A stretch of DNA of 64,000 nucleotides from Streptomyces sp. NBC_01591 (GTDB lineage Bacteria > Actinomycetota > Actinomycetes > Streptomycetales > Streptomycetaceae), in contig NZ_CP109328.1 of assembly GCF_035918155.1 (NCBI RefSeq), forward strand, positions 868,001 to 932,000, in the 5' to 3' direction. Made by a program: the position numbers and the translations under genes. The stretch's first letter is position 1, and every line of letters starts with the position of its first letter. Under the pieces are notes generated by a model. That model was not told the origin of the DNA. It ran no database searches and saw only the letters and a program-made list of their open reading frames with translations. This document shows positions 18,669 through 28,409 of the stretch, one piece after another.

Positions 18669-18822
18669 CAGTAGCGGCTCTGGCACACATTCCGTGAAAG
18701 ACCGTGCTGGCCGGCATCGGTCGGAGGAGCGGGGCACGCGACGCGCGCCGATTGGAGGCCGTACGAACTCGGTGAAGCCCGCCTCGAGATCGCTCACGGA
18801 ATGTGTGCCAGAACCGCAGTAG
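18669..18822. repeat. MITE-like repeat with 18-bp perfect terminal inverted repeats
   Basis: CTGGCACACATTCCGTGA (18680-18697) recurs inverted at 18794-18811. With one mismatch per few bases the similarity extends outward to GCGG(C/T)TCTGGC. About 96 bp lie between the arms and code for nothing I recognise. The GCGG-TCTGGC core also forms the arms of the 6276-6355 palindrome, so both may be end pairs of one non-autonomous element family. Confidence 0.5.
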
Positions 18823-18948
18823 CGACGTCACTTGTCGATGAGTTTGGGAGGCGCCCAGAACCACGGTCGGGTGATGTTGATGAGTTTGGGAGGCATGGCG
18901 GCTCTTGCCAGGGCAGCATCGGGATGCTCTTGGTGAAAGGTGCTGGTC

Positions 18949-19648
18949 ATGCCGCAGATGTCGAAGGTCGAGCTGTACGCGGCGATCCGGCGTGACCATC
19001 GCGGCGGCATGTCGATACGGGAGCTTGAGCGCAAGCACGGCGTGACGTGGCGGACGGTACGGAAGGCGTTGGATTCGTGCTGGCCGGAGCCTCGTAAGAG
19101 GCTGCCGCCCCGAGCCACCACGCTGGACCCGTACAAGGCGGTGATTGATGAGATCCTGCGGGCGGATCTGGAAGCGCCGCGCAAGCAGCGGCACACGGTC
19201 ACCCGGATCTTTCACCGGCTGGTCGAGGAGCACGGGGCGGACGTCTCCTACGGGGTGGTGCGCTATTACGTCGCCGGCCGGAAGCCCGAGATCCTGGTCG
19301 AGTCGGGCAAGGCACCGCTGGAGGCGTTCGTTCCGCAGACTCACTTGCCCGGCCATGAGGCGGAGGTCGACTTCGGTGACGTGACCGTGCGCCTGTCCGG
19401 CGAGCTGGTGACCTGCTACCTGTTCTCCTTCCGGCTGTCGTACTCGGGCAAGGCCGTCCACCGCGTGTTCGCCTCCTGCGGCCAGGAAGCCTTCTTCGAA
19501 GGCCACGTCCACGCGCTCCGCACTTTGGGCGGTGTCCCCCGGACCAAGATCCGCTACGACAACCTGAAGTCGGCCGTCGCCCAGGTGCTGGGGCTGAACC
19601 GGGCGAGGGTGGAGACCGACCGGTGGATCGCCTTCCGCTCGCACTTTG
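18949..19648 (+). pseudogene. IS21-type istA, 5' part
   Basis: 234 codons of an IstA transposase of a type distinct from the complete copy: MPQMSKVELYAAIRRDH, the HTH SIRELERKHGVTWRTVRKAL, then the first core Asp in AEVDFGDVTVRL and the second in RTKIRYDNLKSAV. ATG at 18949 has AAAGG upstream. The family sequence stops at WIAFRSHF, where the recombinase element begins. Reading on, translation runs into foreign sequence and stops at 19710. Confidence 0.8.
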
Positions 19649-19826
19649 TCCATGTTCCCGTGGGTTCCCAGGGCCCTTGGGCTTCGCTGGTGACCTCGAT
19701 GGCTTCCTGACCTGGCCTTCCCTCCGGCACGATACGACAGGGTAATTAGTGCTCGTTTCTCGGAAATCCTGAAGTATCCTCGGCTGTTGCAGCAGAGTCG
19801 CCGGATAGCTGAAGGGGAGGACCGGG

Positions 19827-20900
19827 ATGGCATTGGCTGTCGTGCGCGATCTACGACCGGAACTCCGCTTGGAGGCAGCCGAGGAGGTCGCTGCCTTCGA
19901 GCAGGATCTGCTGGCCGAGTTCGTCCTCGCCCGAGCCTCCGCCGGCGTCCTGGACGGCACCATCCGCGGTGACGTCGGACCCGTCCTTGCCCTGCGTGAG
20001 TGGTTCGGCCGGCCTCTGTGGGAGATGGAGCCTCAGGATCTCGACCGCTACTTCGGTCGGCACCGCCGCGACTCGGCTTCGGGTACCAAGGTCCGCCAGG
20101 CGGCGGCCTTCGCGGTGTTCTTTGAGTTCCTCGAACTCCGCCACAAGGCAGCCATCCACGCCGCCACCGGCTTCGTCGTCGAATCCCCGCTGGACGAGGT
20201 CAACCGGCCCCGCGGGGGCACCTCGGGGAGACTGCGGATCCCGCCGCCGGAAACCGAGATCGCCACGCTCTTCGGCGGCTGGCGATCCGACATGGAAGAG
20301 GCTCGCAAGTACGCACCGGCCGCCAGGAACTACACCGCCTCGCGACTGGCCAGCCTGATCGGACCCCGAATATCGGAGTTGTGCCTGTTGCAGATCGGCG
20401 ATGTCCGCTGGGACCTGGGCCGCTTCGGCAAAGTCCTACTCAAGGGCAAAGGCAGCCGGGGCCGGGGCAAGAAGGAACGGCTCGTCCCGCTGATCAACGG
20501 CTCCCGCGACCTGCTGGAATGGTGGATCACCGGGCCTCGCTGGGAGTTCGACGACAAGGTCAACGACCCTCGTGCCCCGCTGTTTCCATCCGAGCTTCGC
20601 TACGGCGACGGCTCCAGCAGACCCGTGACCGACGACGCCCTGAGAAGCGGGCTGGCCGATACGGTCGCCCGGTATTTACCTCATCAGGCCGGCCAGCTCA
20701 CGCCGCATCTGCTGCGGCACTTCGCGGCCTCCGACCTCGACCGCAACGGCATGGACGTCGTTGCCATCCAAGAGATGCTCGGACACGAATGGCTCAACAC
20801 GACCATGATCTACGTCCACGTCGAGAAGTCCCACGTCGAAGACGCCTGGATCCGCGCCGGCCAACGCGCCACCGAACGTTTTGGAGGGACAAACCGATGA
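19827..20900 (+). CDS. tyrosine recombinase/integrase (catalytically complete)
   Basis: The 357-residue protein has an N-terminal SAM-like core-binding domain (about 25-120) and a catalytic domain carrying the full set: Arg181 (GPRISELCLL), Lys about 216 in the beta-hairpin (KGKGSRGRGKKERLVPL), His294 and Arg297 (TPHLLRHFAASDL), His320 (LGHEWLNTTMI) and Tyr329 (IYVHVEKSH). It should cut and rejoin DNA at the element ends through a 3'-phosphotyrosine. GGGGAGGA lies 6 nt before the ATG. The stop overlaps the next ATG (ATGA). Confidence 0.9.
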   Translation: MALAVVRDLRPELRLEAAEEVAAFEQDLLAEFVLARASAGVLDGTIRGDVGPVLALREWFGRPLWEMEPQDLDRYFGRHRRDSASGTKVRQAAAFAVFFEFLELRHKAAIHAATGFVVESPLDEVNRPRGGTSGRLRIPPPETEIATLFGGWRSDMEEARKYAPAARNYTASRLASLIGPRISELCLLQIGDVRWDLGRFGKVLLKGKGSRGRGKKERLVPLINGSRDLLEWWITGPRWEFDDKVNDPRAPLFPSELRYGDGSSRPVTDDALRSGLADTVARYLPHQAGQLTPHLLRHFAASDLDRNGMDVVAIQEMLGHEWLNTTMIYVHVEKSHVEDAWIRAGQRATERFGGTNR

Positions 20901-21217
20901 AGTGGAATCTGCGGATGGTCGCCGCTCAGCGCGACATCTGGAAAGCCTCAGAGCTCCAACGCCTGCTTGCGGAAGCCGGATTGGCGATCTCGGCGGGCAA
21001 GATGTCCCATCTGTGGTCCGGACGACCGCTGACCGTCCGCCTCGACGACCTCGACATCATCTGCGACGTGCTGAACTGCACGCCAGCCGACCTCCTCATC
21101 CCAGAGAAAAGCACCGGCCGGCGGGAAACCACGACAGCGGAGACAGAGAAGCAGGTCGTCGGAGGCACCCCGATCACCCACCAACGTCGACAAGGTCGTT
21201 CGGGGCCGCCGCTGTGA
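20897..21217 (+). CDS. small XRE/Cro-type helix-turn-helix protein of the recombinase element
   Basis: 106 residues. MVAAQRDIWKASELQRLLAE ... AISAGKMSHLWSGRPLTVRL followed by DLDIICDVLNCTPADLLIP is a clear XRE-type HTH like those of phage repressors. A polar tail of about 30 residues follows. Being coupled by 4-bp overlaps to recombinase genes on both sides, it is likely an expression regulator or an accessory DNA-bending/end-recognition factor. Which of these cannot be told from sequence. Confidence 0.82.
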   Translation: MKWNLRMVAAQRDIWKASELQRLLAEAGLAISAGKMSHLWSGRPLTVRLDDLDIICDVLNCTPADLLIPEKSTGRRETTTAETEKQVVGGTPITHQRRQGRSGPPL

Positions 21218-22761
21218 GCACGCCCGTCCGGCGATCACGGCCCTGGGCCACCCGCAGCTGCCGGGACTGCATGGGCTGGGGCCGACTCGACCGCCCCCGC
21301 TGCAAGGCATGCTGGGGCTTCATCGCGAAAGCGACCGACCGCCACTGCGACGTCTGTCGACGCGAGGTCGCCGCGCTGGACGGGATCTGCCGCCTCTGCC
21401 GCCGCCAGGCCGGCCTGATCGCCGGCCCCGACAACAAGACGCGCGTCGACCTGACGGTCGCCGCCCGCACCGGACACCAGCTGTTCATCATCGGCACCCT
21501 GCGATCTCGCGGCGGACCACCACCGCGACCGGCCTCGTCAGGGCCATCGGAGGTGCGGCTGCACCGTGTTCCGCCGCACTGGACCGAGCTCACACTCTTC
21601 GAGATACCCCGCGACCTGCGCGGCGTCAGCAGCAAAGCACCACTTCTGGACCCGCAGCTGTCCGCGTTCTTGAGCACCCGGGCCGCCCGGATCGCGGAAC
21701 TGCGCGGCTGGCCGCCCCGCACCCTCGGATCAGTGGGACGCGGCATCCGGATCCTCTGCGCGGTCCACCGGCCGGGGGAGCGGATCCGGGCCTCGACCAT
21801 CGCCCAGCTCACCCACACCGCAGTGCCAGCCAGCCACGTCCTGGAAGTGTTCGAAGACCTGGAGATCTTCCTCGATGACCGGCCAGACGCCTTCGACGCC
21901 TGGTGCACAGAACACCTCGCATTCCTCGCCCCGGACATTCGGGCAGAGCTGGACACCTGGGTCAAGATCCTTCGGCACGGGACTCCTCGCCGCGGCCCCC
22001 GAGCCCAGGCCACGATCGGTACCTATCTGAGGAACATCCTGCCGTTCCTGACCGAGTACGCTGCAAAGTACGCAACGCTGCGTCAGGTCACGCGGGACGA
22101 CATCACCAACTGGCTTGCCCACCGCCCCTATCGCGCCCACGACGCCAGTGCCCTGCGGTCGCTGTTTCGCACGCTCAAGGCCGAGCGGCTGGTCTTCGCC
22201 AACCCGATGCGCGGTATCAACGGCGGCAAGCCGGCGACCACGATCCCCACATCGCTCACCACGGACGAGGTGGAGTTCGTCGCCCAGGCCGCCCGGCAGG
22301 ACCCGGCTCTTCGCGTGGTCGTCGCCCTGGCCGGCATCCATGCGCTGCCCGCCCGCCGGATCCGCTCGATGCTGCTGGAAGAGGTGGACCTGCCCGGACG
22401 CCGTCTCGACCCCGAGGGCCTGGACCGCCCTCTGGACGACTACACCGCCGAGGCGATCATCGACTACCTCGCCCACCGTCACCGCCGCTGGCCGAACAGC
22501 ACCAACCCGCACCTGCTGATCAGCAGGAACACGGCCACCACCACAGCGGCGGTGGGCACATTCTGGATGGACCGGCTGGTCAAGGAACTGCCCGTGGGCG
22601 TCGACCGGCTGCGGCAGGACCGCATCCTCGAAGAAGCCCTGGCCAATGGTGCCGACCCCCTGCACCTCGCGCACGTCTTCTCTCTCGGCACCAGGACCAG
22701 CCTTCGCTACACGTCCGCCGTCGCCACCTCGGCCGCCGAACAGGGACCGCTCACCCCCTGA
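21214..22761 (+). CDS. zinc-ribbon protein with degenerate tyrosine-recombinase fold
   Basis: 515 residues from a GTG overlapping the preceding stop (GTGA). The first 75 residues hold four Cys pairs (CRDC, CKAC, CDVC, CRLC), enough for two zinc ribbons. From about residue 270 it follows the core-binding plus catalytic layout of tyrosine recombinases (GTYLRNILPFLTEYAAKY, LRSLFRTLKAERLVFANPM, then a C-terminal domain ending SLGTRTSLRYTSAVATS). The Tyr is kept, but the HxxR and second His positions read RLRQDR and VFSLG, so catalysis by itself is doubtful. It probably acts as a DNA-binding or architectural partner of the 19827 recombinase. Confidence 0.75.
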   Translation: MSTPVRRSRPWATRSCRDCMGWGRLDRPRCKACWGFIAKATDRHCDVCRREVAALDGICRLCRRQAGLIAGPDNKTRVDLTVAARTGHQLFIIGTLRSRGGPPPRPASSGPSEVRLHRVPPHWTELTLFEIPRDLRGVSSKAPLLDPQLSAFLSTRAARIAELRGWPPRTLGSVGRGIRILCAVHRPGERIRASTIAQLTHTAVPASHVLEVFEDLEIFLDDRPDAFDAWCTEHLAFLAPDIRAELDTWVKILRHGTPRRGPRAQATIGTYLRNILPFLTEYAAKYATLRQVTRDDITNWLAHRPYRAHDASALRSLFRTLKAERLVFANPMRGINGGKPATTIPTSLTTDEVEFVAQAARQDPALRVVVALAGIHALPARRIRSMLLEEVDLPGRRLDPEGLDRPLDDYTAEAIIDYLAHRHRRWPNSTNPHLLISRNTATTTAAVGTFWMDRLVKELPVGVDRLRQDRILEEALANGADPLHLAHVFSLGTRTSLRYTSAVATSAAEQGPLTP

Positions 22762-22797
22762 ACCGCAGTGCCCATATGGGCCAAGCTCCGGTCAGCA

Positions 22798-22844
22798 CCC
22801 GTGGATTCGCCCCGAGCACCCTTCAGAATTCGTGAACCCACGGG
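22798..22844. other. attachment-site-like inverted repeat at the right end of the recombinase element
   Basis: CCCGTGGATTCG and CGTGAACCCACGGG are imperfect inverted arms around a 21-nt spacer. The outer arm is also the inverse of CCCGTGGGTTC at the left end (19657-19667). Paired inverted arms with a central spacer are how tyrosine-recombinase core sites look, although spacers are usually 6-8 bp, so the exact crossover point is unknown. Confidence 0.5.
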
Positions 22845-22852
22845 GGATCAAC

Positions 22853-23303
22853 ATCGAGAGCTTCTACTGCCGCCCCGGAATCGAAGGCGCCCACGAGAAG
22901 GGCGGCGTCGAAGGGATGATCGGCTACTTCCGCCGCAACCACTTCACCCCCGTCCCCGAGGTCGCCTCGCTCGCCGAGCTGAACGAGATGGTCGAACAGT
23001 GGGACCGGCAGGACGACGCCCGCCACATCGGGTCCAGGCCCAAGACGGTCGCGGAGTACTTCGCAGTCGAACAGCCGCTGCTGATGCCGTTGCCCGAGGA
23101 ACCATTCGAGACGGGCCGGCTGTTCACCCCGCGAGTCGATCGCTACGGACAGATCCCGGTCCGCACCAACCGCTACTCGGTCCCCATCCGACAAACGCGT
23201 GCGGGTCGTGCTGCACGCTTCCCATCTGGTGGTTTACGACCAGAACGTGGAAGTGGCCCGGCACGAGCGGCTGATCGCGAAGGGTGCCGTCCGTCTGGAT
23301 CTA
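22853..23303 (+). pseudogene. IS21-type istA, 3' part
   Basis: Continues the istA interrupted at 19648: IESFYCRPGIEGAHEKGGVE (catalytic Glu region), MIGYFRRNHFTPVPEV, TDPGPHQ-like tail residues as IPVRTNRYSVPIRQ. Around 23190 the frame shifts, since the continuation RVVLHASHLVVYDQNVEVAR is in another frame, so the gene was already dead or was damaged later. The IS5-family element cuts it after AVRLDL. Confidence 0.75.
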
Positions 23304-23323
23304 GGGCGTGTATCGAGTCGTGA

Positions 23324-23842
23324 TCACCGGATGGTCGGGGTGAGGTCTTTGATCCAGATCATCGAGGCGCGCAGGTGGAGTCCGGCGAGGTAGCTGTCCG
23401 GGGTCTTGTCGTATCGGGTGGCGATGCCACGCCAGGCCTTGAGCTTGTTGATCAGGCGTTCGACGGTGTTCCGTTCTTTGTAGAGGTCCGCGTCGTGACT
23501 GGCGGGCCGGCCGCCCCTGCTGCCCTTCTTCTTCCGATTGGCGGCTTGGTCCTTCTTCTCCGGGATGACTGCCTTGATGTGACGTTTCCGCAGGTGGGCC
23601 CGGTTACCGCGGGACGAGTGGGCCTTGTCCCCGGCGACCGCGTCCGGCCGGGTAGGGCGGCCGACGGGCCCGCGGACTCGTATCTTCCCCAGCACGGGGA
23701 TGAACTGCGGGCTGTCGGCGGCCTGTCCCGCGGTCAGAACGAACGCCGGCGGGCGGCACTTGCGGTCGGCGGCAAGGTGGACCTTGCTGGTCTGCCCACC
23801 TCTGGAGCGTCCCAGGAGGGCGGCCTTCAGTCGGAGTTTTCG
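23324..23842 (-). CDS. IS427-type transposase, second frame
   Basis: 173 codons counted from the likely slip site: LGRSRGGQTSKVHLAADRKC, FVLTAGQAADSPQF, DAVAGDKAHSSRGNRAHL (second Asp) and KERNTVERLINKLKAWRGIA (Glu). There is no good start of its own near the beginning, so expression as a -1 frameshift fusion is likely. Confidence 0.85.
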   Translation of the reverse strand, partial: RKLRLKAALLGRSRGGQTSKVHLAADRKCRPPAFVLTAGQAADSPQFIPVLGKIRVRGPVGRPTRPDAVAGDKAHSSRGNRAHLRKRHIKAVIPEKKDQAANRKKKGSRGGRPASHDADLYKERNTVERLINKLKAWRGIATRYDKTPDSYLAGLHLRASMIWIKDLTPTIR

Positions 23843-24324
23843 GCGACGCCGGATGCGTCGTCGCTCTTCCCGCTCGGGATCGTTTTCGGCGTCCTGCCCG
23901 GTTTGTTCTTCGAGGCCGCCCCCTTTGACCTGGCCTTCTCCTCCTTGGTGGCGGCCTCCTCCAGCGCGGCGACGACGTCCTGGTCCAGATGCATCCCGGC
24001 GGCGTCGTGGTGAGCCCGCGCGGTGGTGGAGTCGACGCTGACCAGGGACAGGTCCACCTCGCCCCGCTTCGCGGCCTCCGCGATCAGCCCCTCCAGCAGG
24101 GCCTCGAAGACGCCGGCGTCACGCCACTGCCGGAAGCGGTTGTGGACGGTCGACCAGGCACCGAACTCCTGCGGCATCTCCCGCCACTGCCCGCCCGTCT
24201 TGAACCGCCAGATCACCCCCTCGAACTGCTGCCGCAGCCGCTCGGGGTACGGGCCGTACTCGCCGATCGGCAGGTACGGCTCGATGAACTCCCAATCCCT
24301 GTCCGTCAGTTGCACTCGCGTCAT
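23827..24324 (-). CDS. IS427-type transposase, first frame
   Basis: 165 codons: TDRDWEFIEPYLPIGEYGPY, FKTGGQWREMPQEFG, HNRFRQWRDAGVFEAL and LVSVDSTTARAHHDAAG with the first catalytic Asp. The frame ends (AENSD) just after an AAAA run at 23837-23840, where a -1 shift leads into the second frame. This is the usual way IS427-group elements make one transposase from two frames. Confidence 0.85.
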   Translation of the reverse strand: MTRVQLTDRDWEFIEPYLPIGEYGPYPERLRQQFEGVIWRFKTGGQWREMPQEFGAWSTVHNRFRQWRDAGVFEALLEGLIAEAAKRGEVDLSLVSVDSTTARAHHDAAGMHLDQDVVAALEEAATKEEKARSKGAASKNKPGRTPKTIPSGKSDDASGVAENSD

Positions 24325-24479
24325 GCAAGAACATCTACCGGTCCAGGCCCCGCCGCGAGGGCGAATCCCTCAGATTGATCACGACTCGATACATGCCCTA
24401 GCAGCGTTTGTCCGGCACTTTGGGCAGCAGCTGGAGGTCGATGGGCTCGGAAATGTTCAGGAGGGATGGACGTCAGTGC

Positions 24480-24788
24480 ATGGGTGAGACTGAGCGGCCG
24501 AGTTGGCCTGCCTTTGATGGCGTCGAGATACTGACCCCTGTGAGTAGCGTCGCGTTCGTGGTCATCTCAGGTCTACCGGGCAGCGGGAAGAGCACCCTGG
24601 CACGGAGTCTGGCCAGGCGCCTCAGCCTTCCGGTGATCGATAAGGATGTGATCCTGGAGTCCCTCTACGACTCGCTCGGAGTCGGTGACCATGCCTGGCG
24701 AAACAGGCTGAGCAGAGCAAGTGACGACATCATGTTCGCCTTGGCAGCGGACGCCGGCCGGCGAAGGGACGAAAGGACAAGGTCATGA
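24480..24788 (+). CDS. P-loop kinase-like protein, C-terminally truncated
   Basis: From ATG 24480, 102 residues. VVISGLPGSGKSTLARSLARRL is a Walker A as in small AAA/zeta-toxin/gluconate-kinase-like P-loop kinases, and LPVIDKDVILESLYDSLG is the following strand and acceptor-site region. The protein then ends after only about 85 residues of the fold (RRRDERTRS), so the lid and base-binding parts are missing. Its stop overlaps the next start (ATGA), showing the truncation lies in an otherwise tidy junction. Probably non-functional. Confidence 0.55.
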   Translation: MGETERPSWPAFDGVEILTPVSSVAFVVISGLPGSGKSTLARSLARRLSLPVIDKDVILESLYDSLGVGDHAWRNRLSRASDDIMFALAADAGRRRDERTRS

Positions 24789-25549
24789 CTGATCAGGAGA
24801 ACAGGACGGCCGACCGCGCGTCGGCGTTGCCGGCGGTGGCCGACCGGGCCACCTTCCAGGCAGAACTGGACAAGCTGCGGGTGCGGGAGAAGGCGCACAC
24901 CCGGGAAGGTGACGCGATCGCTGCGGCCCGACGGCGCCTGCCCATGGTCGAGGTGGCCGCCGATCTCGAGCTGACGGGGCCCGACGGGCCGATCACTCTG
25001 CTCGAAGCGTTCGAAGGGCGCGGCCAGCTCATCGCCTACTACTTCATGTGGCACCACGGCCACCCCGCGGCCGAGCAGTGCGAAGGCTGCACGTGGGTCA
25101 CCACCCAGGTTGAGGAGCTGTCCTACCTTCACTCGCGCGACATCACCTACGCGGTCTTCTGTCAGGGCCCCTACGAGGCAAGCCGCCGCTACCGCGACTT
25201 CATGGGCTGGGACGTGCCGTGGTACTCGGCAGTCCCCTCCCAGGACGTGCTCCTGGTCGGACGCCATGTCGGCATGATGCACCTCGTGTGCTACCTACGG
25301 GACGGCGACCGCATCTTCGAGACCTACTGGACGACCCTGCGCGGCGTAGAGGCCATGGACTACAGCTATGCACTCATGGACCTCACCGTGTACGGACGTC
25401 AGGAGCTGTGGGAAGACTCGCCCTCCGGCTGGCCCCGCGTTCAGGGCACGCCCGCCGATCACGTCCGACTGCGGAGCAACGGACGCCCCATCCCTCAGTG
25501 GTCACGACTCGAGGCTGGCCGTTCCGACAACCTCACACCGAGGCCCTGA
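24785..25549 (+). CDS. DUF899-family protein (thioredoxin-like fold)
   Basis: 254 residues with the DUF899 hallmarks: RAHTREGD-like N-terminal helix (KAHTREGDAIAAARRRLP), LLEAFEGRGQLIAYYFMWHH and EQCEGCTWVTTQVEELSYLH, where CEGC occupies a redox-like CxxC position. DUF899 proteins are predicted to be thioredoxin-like, but no reaction is established. A second, different DUF899 gene is at 58546. It overlaps the kinase fragment by 4 bp. Confidence 0.85.
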   Translation: MTDQENRTADRASALPAVADRATFQAELDKLRVREKAHTREGDAIAAARRRLPMVEVAADLELTGPDGPITLLEAFEGRGQLIAYYFMWHHGHPAAEQCEGCTWVTTQVEELSYLHSRDITYAVFCQGPYEASRRYRDFMGWDVPWYSAVPSQDVLLVGRHVGMMHLVCYLRDGDRIFETYWTTLRGVEAMDYSYALMDLTVYGRQELWEDSPSGWPRVQGTPADHVRLRSNGRPIPQWSRLEAGRSDNLTPRP

Positions 25550-25900
25550 CGCTCAAGCGGCCACGCAGGGCCGGAGGGGTCGGCGATGACCGTGCAGCCC
25601 GGGGCGATCTCCGTGTAGCCGCGCGTCGCGGACCACCGGGAGGCCCGCGGCCAGACATCGCGCGCCTGCAGCGGCCGCAATCCAGCGCTCACCCCCCAAG
25701 CAGGCGCAGGTCAGGGGCTACTTCGTTTGTCTTCTCGGCGAAACCTGCTGGGACCCCGACCTGCGCCGATGCCGAGGCCGCGTCTCCGACGAGCAACCGC
25801 GGCACCAAAGGATTGCGCACGCCCGGCCGACGGAACGAGTGCGCATCGAGCCTGGATTCCGGCGTTTCCGCAGGAAGCGGTGCGCACGAAGACGTGGGCC
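25550..25900. other. gene-free stretch before relaxase relic
   Basis: About 350 bp with no supportable gene. It may include more decayed relaxase sequence, but I could not follow a frame. Confidence 0.4.
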
Positions 25901-26365
25901 CTACAGCGTGGGAGCCGCGCGAGGCGACGCCCGGCCGACGGCCGGTCATGGAGATTGCCGGCATCGACCAGCGGCTCATCGGCTGGCAGTCGACCCGCCG
26001 TCAGCAGATCGCCGACGCGATGTCTGTCCTCGTGGCCGACTACGAGGAGAAGCAGGGGCACCCGCCGGGGGAGCGGGCCTCCTACGCGCTGGACTGCCAG
26101 GTCGGCGACCGGACGCGCCCGCCGAAGCGCACGGTGCTGTTGTCGCTGACCGAGCTGCGTGAGCGATGGCGGGCCTCGGCGATCCGGGCCTACGGTGCCG
26201 ACGTCATCGACCGGTTGGCGGAGCGGGCGCGGGTGGCGGCCGCGGCAGTGTGGGCGCGGGCGCGAACCAGCCGTCGACGTCGCCCTGGCCGCCGTCGAAA
26301 CCGTCGCCGTGGTGTACGTGATGCGCGGCGCGTTCAAGCGCCGGACCCCAGGAGGAGTTGCGTGA
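25901..26365 (+). pseudogene. MobF (TrwC/TraA-type) relaxase internal fragment, frameshifted
   Basis: EPREATPGRRPVMEIAGIDQ, RLIGWQSTRRQQIADAMSVL and LSLTELRERWRASAIRAYGA resemble the middle-to-C-terminal part of actinobacterial conjugative relaxase/helicase proteins. Near 26265 the frame shifts, and AVDVALAAVETVAVVYVMRG continues in the next frame to a TGA at 26363-26365. The N-terminal relaxase and helicase domains are absent. The native 3' end is kept, with a 4-bp overlap to the next gene. Confidence 0.6.
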
Positions 26366-26613
26366 GCACACCGGAAGAACTCAGTTTCGATGACATCCTC
26401 GCCCGCGCACGCGAAGCCGCCCCGGAGCTGAATGCCGTGCTTGATGAGCCTGTGCTGTGGGAGCCGATCTGGAAACGGCCCCGGACACCGAAGTCGAAGG
26501 CGGAGAAGAAGCAGGAACTGCGCAAGCAGCGACGGCGGCTTCAGGACGCCGGACGCCGCCGCTTCATCACCGGGCAGTCGCGCCGGCCCCGGCCCCGACA
26601 GAACCGCATCGGC
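26362..26613 (+). CDS. small protein coupled to the relaxase relic, cut by IS6 copy A
   Basis: GTG at 26362 has AGGAGGAG 5 nt upstream and overlaps the relaxase stop by 4 bp. About 84 native codons read STPEELSFDDILARAREAAP and a strongly basic tail (KSKAEKKQELRKQRRRLQDA) up to the IS6 end. Beyond it translation continues in IS6 DNA to 26730. I do not recognise it; genes in this position on Streptomyces plasmids are usually transfer-associated hypotheticals. Confidence 0.55.
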
Positions 26614-27468
26614 GGCACTGTCACGTTGGCTGACGGGTGGGATGATCTTCGGGTTGATCATGGTGGAGGGAGTTGTCCGTGGGCAGTACGCCGCCGTCGT
26701 ACAAGGGGCACCGGTACCCGGTCGAGGTGATCTCCCACTGCGTGTGGCTGTACTTCCGCTTCCCGTTGTCATTCCGCGAGGTGGAGGAGCTGGTGCTGCA
26801 GCGCGGCATCAGCGTCTCCTACGAGACGGTCCGCCGCTGGTGTCTGAAGTTCGGACAGGCTTATGCCGACGGACTGCGCCGCCGTCGGCCACGGCCCGGG
26901 GACAAGTGGCACCTGGACGAGGTCTTCATCAAGGTCAACGGCGAGCTGAAGTATCTGTGGCGGGCCGTTGACCAGATTGGCAACATCCTCGACATCCTCG
27001 TCCAAAATCGGCGGGACAAGGCTGCGGCAAGGCGCTTCTTCCGCCGCCTGATAAAGAAGATCCGTACGGTGCCGAGGGTGGTCGTCACCGACAAGCTCCG
27101 CTCCTACAGCGCGGCGCACCGCGAGGTCATGCCCTCGGTGGAACACCGCTCCCACAAGGGCCTGAACAACCGGGCGGAGAACTCCCACCAGCCCACGCGG
27201 CAGCGTGAACGCGCGATAAGGGATTCCGTTCCGTAGGCGGGGCCCAGCGGTACCTGTCCGCGTTCAGCGGCATCTCGCCCCACTTCCGCCCTCACCGCCA
27301 CCTGATAACAGCCTCCGACCACCGAGCCGAGATGACCGTCCGCTTCGCGATCTGGGACCAGATCACCCAAGCTGCCAGCCGGCCCACCACGGCCTGACCA
27401 CAGGCCGCAAGCCCACCATGCCCCAACGCGCCGTCAGGCACCGACATACTCAACAACTTGACAGCGCC
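26614..27468 (+). mobile_element. IS6-family insertion sequence, copy A
   Basis: 855 bp bounded by GGCACTGTCACGTTG and, inverted, GGCGCTGTCAAGTTG. Three related copies are at 50498, 57670 and 59383. The 8-bp flanks (GCATCGGC and ACGTGGAC) do not match, so no target duplication remains. Confidence 0.85.
26679..27397 (+). pseudogene. IS6-family transposase, copy A, one-base deletion
   Basis: VGSTPPSYKGHRYPVEVISH, WHLDEVFIKVNGELKYLW (Asp), VVTDKLRSYSAAHREVM (Asp) and ENSHQPTRQRERA (Glu) are the IS6 DDE core. Compared with copy D, ATGAAGGG reads ATAAGGG near 27213, a one-base loss that ends the frame at 27236. The remaining C-terminus continues in the next frame to 27397. Confidence 0.85.
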
Positions 27469-27539
27469 ACGTGGACGGATCTGCTGGTGCCGGTCTCGCC
27501 GGATGCGGGGCAGGGGCCCTGGACCTGTCTGAGGTCTGG

Positions 27540-28409
27540 CTACGGTTCGAGAAATTCAAGTGCTCGCGGGACGAATCTGTCGTGGTGCTGGAAGATCCCG
27601 CCGTGTCCGGCGTCGCGGTAGAGGGGTTCGAGTTCGCCCTGGGGCAGCCGGTCCGCCAGGTCGAGTGTATTGACGCTCGGGACCATTCGATCGCTCTCGC
27701 CGTTGGCCACCAGGACCGGTTGGTGGATGCGCGACAGGTCGGCCGGTGCCTGGAGACCCCAGTGGTGGATGGCCTTCAGTTGGGCACGGAATGATGAGAG
27801 CGAGATGGCCTTGTCGCGGTCGTCTGTGCGCTCCTTCAGCCGGTCCAGGAAGGCGTGGGCCGCCCGGCGGCCGCCCGCGGTGTCGGTGAAGAAGAGGTAC
27901 TGCTTCGGGTCCTTGCGGGTCAGGACGGCCTTGAGGGTGTCCTTGATAGTGAGGACGGTGACCTTGTCGATGCCGGGGCCTCCGGCGGGGCCCGTGCCCG
28001 CGAGGATGAGCTTGCGTACGAGATCGGGTTCCTCTGCCGCGATGACCTGGGCGATGAAGCCGCCCATCGACAGGCCGAGCAGGTCGACCTGGTCGTACCC
28101 GAGGGCCCGGATGAACAGCACGGTGTCGCGGGCCATCGCCTCGATGGTGTCGGGTGTGGAGCCGCTGGATGCGCCGACGCCGCGGTTGTCGAAGGTGATC
28201 ACCGTGCGTCGGGCGGCGAGTCCGTCGACGACGCGTGGATCCCAATTGTCCAGGACTGCGGACAGGTGGTTGAGGAGGATCAGTGGTATGCCGTCGTCCG
28301 GGCCGAGCTGCCGGTAGGCGAAGGTCACGCCACGCACGGACACGGAGCGGTTCGGCGTGTTCTTGTACGACGTCGTGGCGGGGGTGGAGGGACTGGACGG
28401 TGCGCTCAT
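27540..28409 (-). CDS. alpha/beta-fold hydrolase
   Basis: 289 residues. LILLNHLSAVLDNWDPRV (oxyanion region), FDNRGVGAS, LLGLSMGGFIAQ (nucleophile Ser), NGESDRMVP (Asp) and RDAGHGGIFQ (His) give a complete triad, like haloperoxidase/esterase-type hydrolases. The start at 28409 is preceded by AGGACC. It is the last of four minus-strand genes (SDR, AKR, MDR, hydrolase) facing a TetR gene, so its substrate probably relates to carbonyl or ester detoxification. The specific substrate is unknown. Confidence 0.87.
   Translation of the reverse strand: MSAPSSPSTPATTSYKNTPNRSVSVRGVTFAYRQLGPDDGIPLILLNHLSAVLDNWDPRVVDGLAARRTVITFDNRGVGASSGSTPDTIEAMARDTVLFIRALGYDQVDLLGLSMGGFIAQVIAAEEPDLVRKLILAGTGPAGGPGIDKVTVLTIKDTLKAVLTRKDPKQYLFFTDTAGGRRAAHAFLDRLKERTDDRDKAISLSSFRAQLKAIHHWGLQAPADLSRIHQPVLVANGESDRMVPSVNTLDLADRLPQGELEPLYRDAGHGGIFQHHDRFVPRALEFLEP

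Follow-up and report, generated by a model that had tools for sequence, protein, structure and literature searches.

The DNA analysed here, called the window below, comprises 64,000 nucleotides of Streptomyces sp. NBC_01591 (contig NZ_CP109328.1, positions 868,001 to 932,000 of the forward strand), a strain with a genome of 10.25 Mb. Within it, a discrete block of 3,202 bp is inserted into istA, the transposase gene of an IS21-like insertion sequence (IS). The block encodes a tyrosine recombinase (Int), a small helix-turn-helix (HTH) protein and a zinc-finger protein with a recombinase fold (P3), and it is probably an actinobacterial small site-specific transposon of the Tsy type, whose TnsF-like P3 would pick the conserved istA site. 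In the literature that we found, the Tsy gene plan is known from a single study of elements directed at comM (Faure et al., 2023; PMC10293859, available in part); the present family, which has a different target, clear ends and room for cargo, would extend the plan to Actinomycetota and Bacillota. The element and its host gene, in window coordinates, are arranged as follows.

18940..19646, + strand: 5' part of istA of the host IS21-like element, broken after codon ~236
19647..22848, + strand: whole inserted element, probably Tsy-like, delimited by empty-site comparison, with end motifs common to four other insertions of which both sides are visible
19647..19667, + strand: left end, TGTCCATGTTCCCGTGGGTTC, with an inverted-repeat arm at 19657-19667
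19827..20900, + strand: Int, tyrosine recombinase, 357 aa (PF00589, 81.7 bits), with the full catalytic set
20897..21217, + strand: HTH_26 (Cro/C1-type) protein, 106 aa (PF13443, 52.6 bits), with 4-bp overlaps on both sides
21214..22761, + strand: P3, putative TnsF-like protein, 515 aa, recognised by its CxxC pairs, fold and aligned catalytic positions
22821..22848, + strand: right end, CTTCAGAATTCGTGAACCCACGGGGGAT, with an inverted-repeat arm at 22834-22844
22849..23302, + strand: 3' part of istA, resuming in frame, then 8 bp short compared with empty copies and cut off near 23302

The boundaries come from comparison with empty sites. A search with the left flank through 199 congeneric genomes matched 108 of them at E up to 0.001, often weakly, and 28 istA loci were compared (L055-L082, with L083 excluded). 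Both istA flanks stand side by side in 22 of the 28, and in the closest of these ~3 bases separate the aligned parts; L072 is filled by a related element that interrupts istA at the same place, and the remaining five are broken at other positions or cut off. When the window flanks are joined in silico, a single istA frame of 394 aa spans the junction, in agreement with an initial annotation of this DNA that had described a block inside istA whose frame resumes beyond it; a longer antisense frame crosses the junction likewise. That annotation had placed the element at 19649..22850, and while the discrete block stands, its ends are corrected to 19647-22848. An inverted repeat just inside the ends had also been noted, and is indeed present: the + strand of the window holds a single copy of each arm, CCCGTGGGTTC (19657) and GAACCCACGGG (22834), and an exact 11-nt inverted match between the terminal 40-mers arose in 1 of 2,000 shuffles and in 2 of 2,000 random placements.

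Two further features flank the host IS. Just upstream of it, CTGGCACACATTCCGTGA and its inverse lie ~120 bp apart (18676-18820). On the minus strand at 23300-24400, a transposase, presumably IS5-like, occupies two overlapping frames and follows on from the end of the istA match.

The same istA site has been used repeatedly. Members of the subfamily to which the element belongs stop at one and the same istA codon (~237) in eight genomes, the present one counted. At four loci (L084, L090, L092 and L099) elements with a P3 77-82% identical to that of the window are inserted at the identical position between two istA codons, and the istA segments there are 46-73% identical to the reference istA protein. 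Their left junctions agree, CACTT or CACTA (TGGTA in L099) being followed by TGTCCATG, and the left end TGTCCATGTTCCCGTGGGTTC recurs with at most three changes; their right junctions consist of GAAC(C/T)CACGG plus five bases, followed by the next istA codon. The right junction is also visible in L127, L129 and L130, so that the CTTCAG...GAAC right end adjoins istA in eight loci with the window counted, and other clades have similar ends. In L100, istA resumes at residue 237. Altogether, 9 of the 12 loci whose P3 is at least 65% identical (best segment, window counted) sit before istA ~237, the exceptions being L091, a fragment in L093, and L128. No target duplication was seen at the istA insertions. 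In the window, the site lies just upstream of the stretch GAHEKGGVE, which we take to be the region of the catalytic Glu of istA.

Other insertions were met in the same gene. In genomes G200 and G136, a different insertion (L085 5643-9354, L086 5230-8776) breaks istA at residue ~199; in L085 it carries two tyrosine recombinase genes, one short and one long, a make-up that we judge to be Tn554-like. A third kind (L090 655-3251, L087 6073-13867) breaks istA at residue ~176; in L090 it has a single tyrosine recombinase of 511 aa, and L087 carries a similar gene that is broken. The gene istA is an insertion site for at least three recombinase elements.

The three genes of the element overlap by 4 bp at each joint (ATGA, GTGA), as first annotated, which suggests translational coupling. 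The R-K-H-R-H-Y set ascribed to the first recombinase is found at R181, K208, H294, R297, H320 and Y329, identical in 29 of 29 aligned Ints (window counted); the Int and P3 alignments had first been cleared of a total of ten rows that were near-duplicate, partial or broken. P3 has four CxxC pairs (at residues 16, 30, 45 and 59, the region spanning 16-62), a helical region at ~147-213, a core-binding (CB) domain at ~240-325 and a diverged recombinase domain at ~350-510. A weak double-zinc-ribbon match (DZR_2) appears in 19 of 31 aligned P3 relatives (E up to 0.1, best 0.0029), and P3 of the window itself does not show this match. Recombinase profiles match P3 only in part (XerD model, 32 bits, 264-363; phrog_1, 31 bits, 247-451), and an AlphaFold model with a mean pLDDT of 70.6 has 20 matches in PDB at E up to 0.001, all of them tyrosine recombinases. 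The fold excludes an unrelated zinc protein. The helical stretch 135-240, folded alone from the single sequence, had no significant PDB match, and a second CB domain, as in TnsF, does not emerge from this comparison.

The initial annotation thus described P3 correctly as four Cys pairs followed by a recombinase-like fold. Its claim that the HxxR and the second His had been lost holds for both His positions, but the Arg of HxxR is kept (R467, in 38 of 39 rows with one gap). Y499 is likewise present in 37 of 39 rows with two gaps, and D469 and R470 in every aligned row with a residue there, while Arg I is often lost. The lost His positions were placed by aligning motifs and by the fold, as a direct comparison of hidden Markov models with the Int family failed to give a profile match. 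With a Tyr and one Arg in all aligned rows that are not gapped at these positions, the label of pseudo-recombinase is unproven as judged from the alignment.

These residues bear on what P3 does. It might be a mere DNA-binding or structural partner, or a regulator comparable to MrpR, YopR and SroF, with Int alone choosing the target, a possibility that is compatible with a Tsy-like origin and that we consider unlikely. These repurposed recombinase-fold phage proteins do occur among the fold matches of P3, at lower Z (8.6 to 10.6), and the lost His positions and the frequent loss of Arg I would suit such a role. However, a pure repressor has no obvious need of R467, D469, R470 and Y499, kept in all rows with a residue there, and the trio mostly stays together. 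Furthermore, in the available part of its description, loss of any component of ZooTsy impairs transposition, and the catalytic activities of both YRec and TnsF are reported as essential (PMC10293859).

Relatives of P3 are widespread. They were found in 33 of 100 genomes at E up to 0.001 and in 35 of 392 congeneric genomes at E up to 1e-50, the own genome included in both, as well as in 99 of 72,556 plasmid records; a scan of genome contigs gave two relatives only. Protein searches covered the best 120 of 334 and the best 120 of 333 matches, with ~8,000 candidates scored. Trios lie on plasmids of Arthrobacter, Pseudonocardia, Nocardioides and Mycobacterium (the annotated third gene of the last is shorter), and two Bacillota plasmids, from Cytobacillus and Bacillus, show the trio order with a P3 recognisable by profile, the annotated Bacillus recombinase being short. 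Among 52 loci fetched on a P3 or Int match, nine without P3 in one piece were set aside, and the order Int - HTH - P3 is complete in 36 of the remaining 43, which answers the call for a gene-neighbourhood check. The distances of Int, HTH and P3 correlate (r 0.72 to 0.93 over 24 loci; 0 of 1,000 shuffles each), so that the genes appear to travel together; four near-identical loci (L034, L036, L041 and L043) were kept in both counts and removed from the correlation. As regards a phage origin, no match was found among 50,697 phage records, and a pattern search of viral contigs matched 188 stretches, none encoding a relative. None of the three trio proteins matches a defence system in PADLOC.

Relatives also occur in several copies per genome. 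In one genome (G069), copies at four places have 3.3 kb in common and stop at the same two ends; in another (G019) there are two copies of ~4.2 kb each, while two copies in a third (G055) lie inside a longer duplication and are not counted as evidence for movement. The empty sites, the repeated insertions at one codon and these multicopy relatives support the original proposal of a mobile site-specific recombination element. That proposal was to be given up if the trio occurred only in fixed chromosomal settings with no matching end repeats or empty sites, or if structure prediction of the third protein gave no recombinase fold, and neither came true. Some relatives carry an open reading frame between P3 and the end, coding for S1-domain, HEAT-repeat, SnoaL-like or unnamed proteins, and that of L132 resembles, by eye, an aminoglycoside phosphotransferase. 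In the window copy, 87 bp separate the P3 stop from the element end. Two of the G069 copies (L034, L036) sit at the 3' end of DNA methylase genes, and that of L140 sits where a transposase-like frame ends, these genes being named by eye. A preference for mobile DNA may extend to other clades.

Regarding the mechanism, Int would join both element ends into a circle and then insert this circle. P3 as a TnsF-like selector would recognise the conserved istA stretch with its zinc ribbons and a recombinase-type DNA-binding clamp, by analogy with TnsF of Tsy, which selects the target (PMC10293859), and the HTH protein would assist as an accessory or regulatory DNA-binding factor. The precise insertion, by interrupting the transposase gene of the host IS, would cost the IS21-like element its activity. 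The two core sites have no evident homology and the five right-end bases do not vary among the G069 copies, which would fit, as speculation, a single-strand exchange finished by replication. As there is also neither a duplication nor a footprint after insertion, Int and P3 could form an asymmetric pair. A bolder picture, tentative and on balance doubtful, is an Actinomycetota and Bacillota branch of Tsy-type transposons specialised on other mobile elements, one subfamily being aimed at the IS21 transposase gene and killing its host IS, with Int and P3 maybe exchanging one strand as such a pair and replication completing the insertion.

The assignment to the Tsy type draws first on architecture. 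According to the available part of its description (PMC10293859), Tsy consists of YRec, a small HTH protein and a TnsF-like protein that combines zinc fingers at its N-terminus with recombinase domains, has probable cargo after the core genes, inserts into comM at a conserved motif and forms a circle with joined ends. The window element shares the order YRec - HTH - TnsF-like on one strand, a third protein in which recombinase CB and catalytic (CAT) domains come after N-terminal zinc fingers, a position for cargo beyond the third gene and before the far end (used in its relatives), and an insertion site within a conserved part of a gene that is itself conserved. The statement that no described type is known to place an HTH protein between an active recombinase and a degenerate zinc-ribbon partner consequently does not hold. 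Unlike Tsy as described there, the window element targets istA, has short inverted repeats, has lost the His positions of its third protein, and lacks a GIY-YIG gene, the 87 bp after P3 holding no further gene. We take comM as the site of the described members and not as type-defining; if it were defining, the window element would be Tsy-like only. The HTH adds support: TnsF-like proteins adjoin YRec and HTH genes on plasmids of Rhodococcus ruber and Variovorax, loci that would be Tsy elements, and the HTH profile of the window family scores 50 bits on the Rhodococcus HTH and 27 bits on the Variovorax HTH. In Rhodococcus ruber (L177 1-5689), the set is directly preceded by a TniQ-family gene and a further integrase gene, perhaps a Tn7/Tsy neighbourhood.

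Several observations pull the other way. The P3 profile scores all three TnsF-like proteins compared below threshold (those of Rhodococcus ruber and Variovorax, and a Tn6022-type one, taken as such from its place beside a short TniQ in an Acinetobacter record; ZooTnsF itself is not among them), and hhalign probabilities are marginal, at 43% for Variovorax, 26% for Rhodococcus and 9% for Tn6022, yet the Variovorax match is collinear to the last residues. P3 has 4 CxxC pairs versus 12 in each of these proteins. Tsy, in the portion of the paper at hand, is described without inverted repeats and in comM (PMC10293859). By the criteria used, seven of the 43 P3 loci lack part of the trio (L044, L051, L091, L093, L127, L134 and L138); L093 counts among them although it has an intact trio, since a fragment of P3 scored higher there. 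The joined-end sequence was not found in the 392 congeneric genomes (up to 2 mismatches) or in viral contigs (exact pattern), with which a circle is still compatible. Lastly, the window element is single-copy in its genome, with two short matches elsewhere, and this, together with the further damage in the istA remnant, would also suit a copy that no longer moves within a family that does. Such a remnant would be compatible with a Tsy-type transposon, but we doubt it, as all three genes are open and the Int catalytic set and both ends are present. Overall, architecture and HTH argue for Tsy, and P3, by sequence a marginal case, does not settle membership.

Several other systems combine recombinases in comparable ways, and they are compared here from the available parts of PMC10214605, PMC3414803, PMC5385486, PMC9345347 and PMC8138268. 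SE (IntA-Tfp-IntB-Srap) and GInts (ginABCD) likewise pair an active recombinase with a protein of recombinase fold whose catalytic set is incomplete (Tfp, GinC), but they have two (SE) or three (GInt) integrase genes plus another small protein, whereas the window element has three genes between its ends and one PF00589 match, not four core genes. It is very improbable that the element is of SE or Tn554-like kind and takes donor flank bases along as a 6-bp footprint, even though several recombinase-fold proteins with a small protein recall SE and GInt. AACTT, the 5 nt that lie outside the right repeat arm, is constant in the four G069 copies, while their left flanks differ, so the SE footprint is not found in them; in the five istA cases visible on both sides the bases outside the right arm differ from the left flank; and between the ends of the window element, Int and P3 are accompanied by the HTH gene alone. 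Tn554 and the actinobacterial Tn554-like pairs (Van Houdt 2012; PMC3414803) resemble the Tsy-type candidate in joining a short recombinase to a second recombinase-type protein in Actinomycetota. By description they are set apart, with a long partner of 611-828 aa and a C-terminal catalytic motif as against the 515 aa of P3 without the His positions. On pNOCA01, a recombinase pair without an HTH between (109873-113510), taken to be the Tn554-like pair of PMC3414803, and a trio of the present family (24370-27630) are separate units. RIT elements also have three adjacent, overlapping genes, all of them tyrosine recombinases, whereas the middle gene of the window is HTH_26.

TnsF of the Tn7-like Tn6022 shares zinc fingers and a degraded recombinase domain with P3 and is used as a target selector, but it works with Tn7-type transposition genes, none of which lies between the window element ends, and the sequence similarity to P3 is not significant. 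In the open-access literature searched, no account was found of the trio in istA or in Actinomycetota, although the 1,099 TnsF homologs of the Tsy paper may include relatives. A selector that has lost part of its catalytic set would offer a natural test of the change from recombinase to target selector, and with clades beside different genes, selector swaps are directly testable. Compared with Tsy, as far as its description was available, the gene plan is already known, and what is new here is the target, the ends and the eroded third protein.
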